64,000 nucleotides of DNA from an uncultured Pelagibacteraceae bacterium (lineage in GTDB: Bacteria; Pseudomonadota; Alphaproteobacteria; Pelagibacterales; Pelagibacteraceae): the NCBI GenBank assembly GCA_902538885.1, contig CACBGU010000003.1, forward strand, positions 34,752-98,751, written 5' to 3'. Below the pieces are notes generated by a model. It was not told the DNA's origin and ran no database searches. It saw only the letters and a list, made by a program, of their open reading frames with translations. The position numbers were made by a program, and so were the translations under genes. Shown in pieces: positions 5,123-7,449 of this stretch. Every line of letters begins with the position of its first letter. Position 1 is the first letter of the stretch.

Positions 5123-6052
5123 ATGAAAATTTTAGGAATAGGAAACGCTATAGTTGATGTCATTTGTAAAGTGGATGACAGTTTTATTAAAAAAAATAAA
5201 CTTACGAAGAGCACAATGAAATTATTTTTTGACAATGAAGAATTTGAGAAATTATTTTCAAGTCTTAAAATTGAAAAAACTGTTTCGGGAGGATCCGTAG
5301 CAAACTCTATAGTTGGTATATCTCAGCTTGGTGATAAAGCTGGTTTTATAGGTAAAATTTCAGATGATGAATTTGGAAGCAATTACGAAGAAGGTTTAAA
5401 AAAAGAAAATGTAGAATATTTTTATTTAAAAAAGAAAGAGAAGCTACCAACTGGCACTTGTTTAATATTAGTTACACCAGACTCTGAGAGAACAATGTGT
5501 ACTTTTCTTGGAACTGCAGGAAAAATTAATGAAAATGATGTTAATATAGATGCGGTAAAAAAAAGTGAGATAATATTTTTAGAGGGTTATTTATGGGACG
5601 AAGGAGAACCAAAAAAAGCTTTTGAAAAGGCCATAAACAACGCAAACAAAGTAGCTATGTCACTTTCTGATCAGTTTTGTGTAGAAAGACATAAGCCCCA
5701 TTTCCTAGAATTAGTAAAAAATAAAATAGATATAACCTTTGCTAATGAACAGGAAATTACTTCTCTAATAGAAGCAAAAAATTTTAAAGAAGTTATCAAT
5801 TTTTCAAAACAACTTAATAAATTAATAATAATAACTAGAGGCGAGAAAGGTGCTATTGCGGTGAAAGGTGAAGAGATTTCGGAATGTGGAGTTGAACCGA
5901 ATCTTAATATAATTGATCTAACTGGGGCTGGGGATCTTTTTGCTGCTGGTTTTTTAAATGGTTACATCAATAACTTATCTATTAAAGAAAGTTTGGAAAA
6001 AGGCACAGAGATGTCATCAAAAGTAATTCAGCAAATTGGTGCTAGACTTTAA
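5123..6052 (+). CDS. PfkB-family kinase, adenosine kinase-like
   Basis: GGSVANSIVGISQLG, and C-terminal DLTGAGDLFAAGFL PfkB signature. Confidence 0.85.
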   Translation: MKILGIGNAIVDVICKVDDSFIKKNKLTKSTMKLFFDNEEFEKLFSSLKIEKTVSGGSVANSIVGISQLGDKAGFIGKISDDEFGSNYEEGLKKENVEYFYLKKKEKLPTGTCLILVTPDSERTMCTFLGTAGKINENDVNIDAVKKSEIIFLEGYLWDEGEPKKAFEKAINNANKVAMSLSDQFCVERHKPHFLELVKNKIDITFANEQEITSLIEAKNFKEVINFSKQLNKLIIITRGEKGAIAVKGEEISECGVEPNLNIIDLTGAGDLFAAGFLNGYINNLSIKESLEKGTEMSSKVIQQIGARL

Positions 6053-6054
6053 AA

Positions 6055-6171
6055 TTATTTTTTTTTCCTTTTAAAGCTTCCTTTTCCTTTCTTGGGCTTA
6101 ACTATTTTAGGTTTATATATTTTTGTAAAAAGTTTTTCTAAATATGGATTTTTTTTTTTTAAAATTTTCAT
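6055..6171 (-). CDS. Small basic ORF resembling alternative ribosome-rescue factor ArfA
   Basis: Hand translation: MKILKKKNPYLEKLFTKIYKPKIVKPKKGKGSFKRKKK*. Matches the ArfA core pattern (P-L/Y-hydrophobic ... V-x-x-KKGKGS-[YF]-x-RK). Not in the supplied ORF track because of its size. Confidence 0.6.
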   Translation of the reverse strand: MKILKKKNPYLEKLFTKIYKPKIVKPKKGKGSFKRKKK

Positions 6172-6258
6172 ATATCTAAATATTTACTTTTATAATATTA
6201 AAAAAAATTAATCTGATATTGTAATTTTTAATACTGTAAGATAACATTAAAAATAGAA

Positions 6259-6873
6259 ATGATAGACAATAAAGAAACATTAAATTTTTTTCCTCAACCT
6301 GTATTCAAGTATAAAGTTGATGATTTTAAAGAATATAATAAGAAACTGTCTAAATATATATACGATTTGAAGGAAGAAGATAAAAGCGGCATATTGAGGT
6401 CAAATAGAGGTGGTTGGCACTCAAAACCGTTTAGCTTAAAAGATACAAATTCTATACAACATAAATTTCTATTAGAGACGACTAAATATGTTTTTGATTG
6501 TATTAAAACTCTTGGTTGGAAACTAGAACCTAATAAAGTTATTTGTACAGAAATGTGGGCTATAATTAATAAAAAAGACGATTTCAACATAATACACACC
6601 CACCCAAATTCCTACCTCAGCGCAGCATATTATGTTAAAGCTCCAAAAGATTGTGGTCAATTTACTATTGAAAATCCACACTCTATAAGCAGACATAGTT
6701 ATCCTGCATTAGAAAGAAAGACGGAATTTAATTTAAAAGTTGAAAGAATAGAAATTGAAGAAGGAGACTTATTGCTTTTTCCAGCTTATCTTCCACACGG
6801 AGTACAAGAAAATAAATCTAATGAAGATAGGATAGTTATAAGTTTTAATATTAATATTAACAACTTTAAATAA
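6259..6873 (+). CDS. Putative 2OG-Fe(II) oxygenase family protein (TIGR02466-like)
   Basis: HTHPNSYLSAAYYVKAP ... GDLLLFPAYLPHGVQENKSNEDRIVISFNI; HxH...H spacing and C-terminal R typical of small cupin-like oxygenases. Confidence 0.7.
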   Translation: MIDNKETLNFFPQPVFKYKVDDFKEYNKKLSKYIYDLKEEDKSGILRSNRGGWHSKPFSLKDTNSIQHKFLLETTKYVFDCIKTLGWKLEPNKVICTEMWAIINKKDDFNIIHTHPNSYLSAAYYVKAPKDCGQFTIENPHSISRHSYPALERKTEFNLKVERIEIEEGDLLLFPAYLPHGVQENKSNEDRIVISFNININNFK

Positions 6874-7449
6874 TTACGATTTTTTTAAATTTATTAAATA
6901 CCCCTCTTTTTTACTAATTAAAAAATTTTGATCACTAAAAATATTAAAAATTTTTTTTCTCAATCTATAAATATGAGTTTCAACTGTATGAGTCTCTATT
7001 TCAGATTGGTATTCCCAAACAGCTTTCTCTAATTCTTTAATACTTATAGGCTCTTTTTTTTTGGATAAATATAAAATTGTATTTATCTCCTTTTCAGTCA
7101 ATTTTAACTCTAAGTTATTAGATGAAATTTTCCTAGAATTTAAATCAATTATGTAATTGTTCAAATTGATTTTTGATTGTTGGTTAAATTTGATTTTCAA
7201 AAACTCAATGTTTAATTTTTCAATCAATTTATTTAATTTTAATGGAAATCTTTCTAAAAAAACCGAATTCTTTAAATTTGAATTATTATTTTTTGTAATA
7301 ATTAAATAATTCTCTAATTTTTTTATTTCTGAATTTAAAACTTTATCGTCTTTTATCTGCAATACTTTAAAATTTAAATCTTCATCAAGTTCTTTTAAAA
7401 TATGGTATAAAACATCAAATTTATAAATAATTAAATTTTGAATATGCAT
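6874..7449 (-). CDS. Winged-helix (OmpR/PhoB-type) transcriptional regulator with divergent N-terminal domain
   Basis: C-terminal LKLTEKEINTILYLSKKKEPISIKELEKAVWEYQSEIETHTVETHIYRLRKKI is a Trans_reg_C domain. Confidence 0.75.
   Translation of the reverse strand: MHIQNLIIYKFDVLYHILKELDEDLNFKVLQIKDDKVLNSEIKKLENYLIITKNNNSNLKNSVFLERFPLKLNKLIEKLNIEFLKIKFNQQSKINLNNYIIDLNSRKISSNNLELKLTEKEINTILYLSKKKEPISIKELEKAVWEYQSEIETHTVETHIYRLRKKIFNIFSDQNFLISKKEGYLINLKKS

Follow-up and report, generated by a model that had tools for sequence, protein, structure and literature searches.

A 38-codon SAR11 gene, almost certainly of the ArfA family, at a conserved chromosomal locus

The locus considered here raises the question of whether SAR11 bacteria carry a chromosomal gene for the ribosome-rescue factor ArfA and, if so, whether that gene shares the non-stop control seen in the ArfAs studied so far. 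The window that we analyzed is a stretch of 64,000 nucleotides from an uncultured Pelagibacteraceae bacterium, in which the original prediction had placed a 38-aa minus-strand ORF. This ORF is present at 6055..6171 (minus strand), runs for 38 codons from ATG to TAA and encodes MKILKKKNPYLEKLFTKIYKPKIVKPKKGKGSFKRKKK, identical to the peptide first quoted. As had also been stated, it ends 2 bp away from the stop of a convergent gene, which encodes a PfkB-family kinase (5123..6052, plus strand; PF00294, E = 1.5e-46). On its other side, a gap of 87 bp (6172..6258) separates it from a divergent 2OG-Fe(II) oxygenase gene (6259..6873, plus strand; PF13759, E = 2.9e-25), which lies between arfA and the gene for a winged-helix (Trans_reg_C) regulator (6874..7449, minus strand; PF00486, E = 1.8e-11).

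Judged from its Pfam match, in-frame selection and conserved locus, the 38-codon ORF almost certainly encodes a member of the ArfA family. The Pfam ArfA model, PF03889, scores the peptide at 29.9 bits (E = 3.9e-7), above the curated cut-off of 25.5 bits, and in a whole-genome search of the draft assembly, which is ~74% complete, this ORF is the single match. Full shuffles of the residues (n=5) gave no PF03889 match, and shuffles in which the KKGKGSFKRKKK tail was retained (n=5) reached 9.9-16.6 bits, all under the cut-off; thus the KKGKGS block alone is insufficient and the front half of the peptide contributes. All 26 aligned SAR11 members match PF03889, and a profile built from 26 SAR11 homologues, searched against all PDB sequences with E up to 10, returned six sequences, every one of them an ArfA chain of a ribosome rescue complex (best E 7e-8). 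The alignment of this profile with E. coli ArfA has no gaps over 32 residues, from about Lys12 to Gly43, and places the KKGKGS block of the window (6076..6093, minus strand) opposite E. coli residues 33-38, which lie in the mRNA channel. In the aligned SAR11 set the block has the form KKGKGS[YF]xRK, with GKGS invariant and KK nearly so. The likeness to ArfA that was originally proposed is thus borne out by the Pfam score, the PDB matches and the conserved locus, and by a gene complement with tmRNA but without ArfB. No NCBIfam model fires on the SAR11 ArfA proteins. An identity as ArfB was rejected, since the ORF has no GGQ-bearing PF00472 domain.

The gene is widespread in SAR11. At a threshold of E <= 1e-3, an order-wide Pfam search found PF03889 in 278 of 398 genomes. 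In a set of 63 Pelagibacterales genomes, consisting of the window's own genome plus genomes at least 95% complete, the SAR11 profile matched 53, of which 50 strongly; the three weak matches are DUF7230-like proteins located elsewhere in the genome. Across 140 SAR11 loci, with start codons assigned by rule and mostly ATG, the reading frame and the natural stop are kept. Purifying selection acts on the frame. Its pN/pS is 0.22, a rough figure in that synonymous sites are near saturation, whereas the two remaining forward frames give 1.13 and 1.53 and the reverse-strand frames 0.42 to 1.76. Among the high-completeness genomes, 60 are from Pelagibacteraceae and eight of these have no ArfA match at all, so the gene is dispensable. 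Nine genomes that gave no match (G003, G005, G011, G013, G024, G040, G084, G096, G138) all belong to the window's genus, and in them the regulator gene abuts the kinase gene, with no ArfA-like frame in between. ArfB is also absent from those ArfA-less genomes in which it was sought, and DUF7230 was not found as a substitute in SAR11 genomes without ArfA.

We considered how such a protein might act among the rescue genes of its host. The window's genome has an alpha-type tmRNA and SmpB, together with exactly two PF00472 proteins, RF1 and RF2 (open frames of 351 and 362 codons); the draft holds no third PF00472 gene, hence no ArfB. Two PF00472 proteins are likewise present in 61 of the 63 Pelagibacterales genomes and one in the other two, and with no third such protein ArfB is found in 0/63. 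Matches to tmRNA were obtained in 59 of the 63, the remaining four being multi-contig drafts in a scan with stricter filters. Complementary loss of tmRNA and ArfA was sought among the genomes, and no pattern emerged.

In E. coli, ArfA occupies the mRNA channel of the complex with its C-terminal part, and its Leu19, Leu24 and Phe25 contact Trp319, Val198 and Phe217 of RF2 (PMC5378476). The RF2 of the window's genome retains Trp319 and Phe217 as well as SPF and GGQ, with Val198 replaced by Ile. On the ArfA side, Asp and Lys predominate at positions 19 and 24 in SAR11, and position 25 remains aromatic, as Tyr or Phe; the window's protein has Lys, Ile and Tyr at the three positions. With two positions of the patch changed and Trp319 and Phe217 of RF2 kept, these residues point best to RF2 recruitment through altered contacts, and SAR11 ArfA most likely recruits RF2 to stalled ribosomes as a partner of tmRNA. 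We infer the following course of ribosome binding and RF2 recruitment. ArfA would bind ribosomes that have run to the 3' end of a stop-less message and stalled there. Its basic KKGKGSFKRKKK tail would insert into the vacant mRNA channel, and the front part of the protein would recruit and open RF2, whose GGQ loop would then release the peptide. Its physiological role would be that of a back-up or partner to tmRNA/SmpB in an order without ArfB. As to regulation, the protein would be translated from an ordinary stop-bearing gene, usually overlapping the upstream regulator gene, and the presence of that stop codon implies that arfA would not be repressed by tmRNA via a non-stop message. We regard this account as a whole as highly probable.

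The changed patch would also suit an RF-dependent rescue factor of ArfA ancestry with a different choice of partner, for example RF1 as well as RF2. Most SAR11 have non-hydrophobic residues at two of the three positions through which E. coli ArfA contacts RF2, and ArfT, which uses RF1 or RF2 and is described as independent of ArfA, is likewise about 40 aa long, with a natural stop and no preceding terminator (PMC6299226). The SAR11 protein nevertheless passes the ArfA cut-off with KKGKGS intact, where ArfT has only KKGGSTNKK (PMC6299226), and SAR11 RF2 retains the Trp319 contact; we consider such a broadened partnership unlikely. Control through non-stop messages made by slippage on the A-runs, as the original prediction had speculated, fares worse. 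The E. coli arfA mRNA is cut or terminated at a hairpin within its 3' end and so becomes a tmRNA target, and full-length E. coli ArfA has a hydrophobic, unstable tail, the truncated form being the active one (PMC3989581). The window's protein, as was correctly foreseen, ends naturally just after the basic block without a hydrophobic extension, a trait common to most SAR11 copies, which stop no more than 5 to 8 residues after GKGS. Both of the T/A runs on which the speculation was based are there, one of 9 bp in the Lys codons ahead of the stop (6058..6066) and one of 12 bp near the start (6149..6160), but the tail is not enriched in AAA, which accounts for 385 of 478 Lys codons (80.5%) in the 3' tail and 898 of 1119 (80.2%) in the rest of the gene; an A-run of 10 occurs in only 25 of 140 loci, and this window holds 36 A/T runs of 9 or more. 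Nor is there a 3' hairpin like that of E. coli: the last 100 nt of 47 SAR11 loci have a mean folding z of -1.25, computed against mononucleotide shuffles, and the E. coli arfA reference has a z of -7.2 in the best of 16 windows along the gene. A terminator-like site was sought for SAR11 arfA, and none was found. Slippage as a means of non-stop control is therefore unsupported, and we would be very surprised to see it confirmed. Because the non-stop control of the studied ArfAs is missing, we file SAR11 arfA as a variant of ArfA.

Two further readings deny the window's copy a function, either altogether or in the making. The ORF is short and AT-rich and its peptide very basic, as a chance Lys-rich ORF or some other basic peptide from AT-rich DNA would be; this reading is refuted by the failed shuffles, the in-frame selection, the conserved locus and a PDB profile that matches ArfA only, and we give it next to no weight. 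Alternatively, arfA might be decaying in the window's sub-clade, uncoupled from the regulator by the oxygenase gene. The regulator gene is found upstream of arfA in 115 of the 133 loci with enough upstream sequence, its 3' end reaching 1 to 29 bases into arfA in most relatives, and in the 113 of 140 loci where the kinase end was located the distance from arfA stop to kinase stop is -14 to +31 bp. Insertion of the oxygenase gene between regulator and arfA is also seen in several close relatives. In the window, where arfA and the oxygenase gene diverge across 87 bp, this separation means that the gap would have to carry the copy's own promoter; a consensus scan of the gap gave no excess of promoter-like sites. 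All six insertion loci scored by script have Leu, Ile, Val or Lys in place of a common alanine, which is present in 105 of the 127 loci without the insertion and missing in 22 (P = 5e-5, overstated because the sequences are related). The variable position aligns, ungapped, with Glu17 of E. coli ArfA, not with Ala18, whose change to Thr inactivates that protein (PMC3989581), and the association may be one of shared ancestry only. Against decay, every locus read that bears the insertion has an intact frame, GKGS and stop, and comparison with the nearest relative shows six synonymous and six non-synonymous changes, though non-synonymous sites are far more numerous. Ongoing decay strikes us as distinctly improbable.

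ArfA is encoded in viral DNA as well. With the SAR11 profile, 184 relatives were detected in viral contigs, and those that were read have short, intact ArfA frames. Seven viral peptides, of which six come from these contigs and the seventh from a cultured phage, score above the PF03889 cut-off (25.7 to 42.3 bits). Some of the arfA-bearing viral contigs have surrounding regions similar to cultured pelagiphages, among them HTVC010P, HTVC008M and Mosig. One of six cultured pelagiphage records has an ArfA gene by profile search, HTVC034P gp63 (MW273922, 35184-35309), annotated as hypothetical; tblastn of SAR11 ArfA against the phage records gave no match, perhaps owing to the BLAST low-complexity filter. 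Short ArfA proteins are encoded by many contigs among the viral loci L171-L250, and several of these contigs have cultured pelagiphages as relatives. Two phage PHROGs of unknown function, phrog_20887 and phrog_37108, match SAR11 ArfA (best E 9e-6 and 5e-4) and are probably phage ArfA. An ArfA was reported earlier from a Citromicrobium phage (PMC8953757) and, in December 2025, from pelagiphage HTVC027P, where it is highly expressed (PMC12753301).

For bacteria themselves, reviews confine ArfA to beta- and gamma-proteobacteria (PMC8012679; PMC6881298), and a survey of 2,376 Alphaproteobacteria recorded arfB in 2,022 and arfA in 0 (PMC11633108). We found no report of ArfA in SAR11 cells in the open-access literature, and the chromosomal arfA of SAR11 is apparently an undescribed gene. 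A class-wide sample yielded PF03889 matches in six genomes from outside SAR11; one of these matches falls slightly short of the cut-off, and another is embedded in a long open frame. ORFs resembling ArfA, for example RNPVAARLSKSRFKPKTVLARKGKGSYRRRSKH, are present in a few Alphaproteobacteria other than SAR11 (L036, L038-L041). The presence of ArfA in most SAR11 and the lack of ArfB there would redraw the ribosome rescue map of a bacterial group that is among the most abundant. SAR11 arfA would be both a natural ArfA free of the tmRNA feedback loop and the host counterpart of the ArfA genes on pelagiphages. A more ambitious proposal, which we put forward tentatively and with some doubt, is that SAR11 and phage ArfA is no tmRNA-repressed back-up; it might instead be a stop-bearing, constantly available factor that replaces ArfB, is shared or traded with pelagiphages and is one of a wider group of tiny rescue factors, DUF7230 among them.

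Several known systems invite comparison with SAR11 ArfA. DUF7230 (PF23876), a family without known function, is likewise a small basic protein, with an NPxAxxLRTPxF start, but it has KKKYNRK where ArfA has KKGKGS. A profile comparison of DUF7230-like proteins with SAR11 ArfA gives a probability of 96%, and there is a hint that DUF7230, too, may be a rescue factor family. Small proteins of the form NPxAxxLRTPxF...KK in outlying Pelagibacterales genera (L087, L088, L089) match DUF7230, one at the cut-off and two below it. BrfA of Bacillus recruits RF2 to non-stop ribosomes, as SAR11 ArfA is predicted to do, but has an internal terminator and a different sequence (PMC6881298), and it is not among the PDB matches of the SAR11 profile (E up to 10). 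Rescue factors perform poorly when paired with components of another species (PMC6881298). ArfT of Francisella shares with SAR11 ArfA its size of about 40 aa, a basic tail, a natural stop and, presumably, dependence on a release factor; it differs in lacking KKGKGS, its tail being KKGGSTNKK in contrast to KKGKGSFKRKKK in SAR11. The ArfA of pelagiphage HTVC027P, gp30 (PMC12753301), belongs to the same Pfam family and the same host group, but is a phage gene, whereas the SAR11 gene is chromosomal and sits at a conserved locus. The central comparison is with E. coli ArfA (YhdL, PF03889), with which the SAR11 protein shares the KKGKGS[FY]xRK channel block, an ungapped alignment of the stretch that precedes it, and a genome with tmRNA and RF2. 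The SAR11 copy differs in its natural stop soon after the block, its lack of a hydrophobic tail, its partly changed RF2-contact residues, and a gene that lies at a different locus without a terminator or RNase III hairpin. The non-stop mRNA, 3' hairpin and hydrophobic tail are regulatory traits of the studied ArfAs and are not required for rescue activity.
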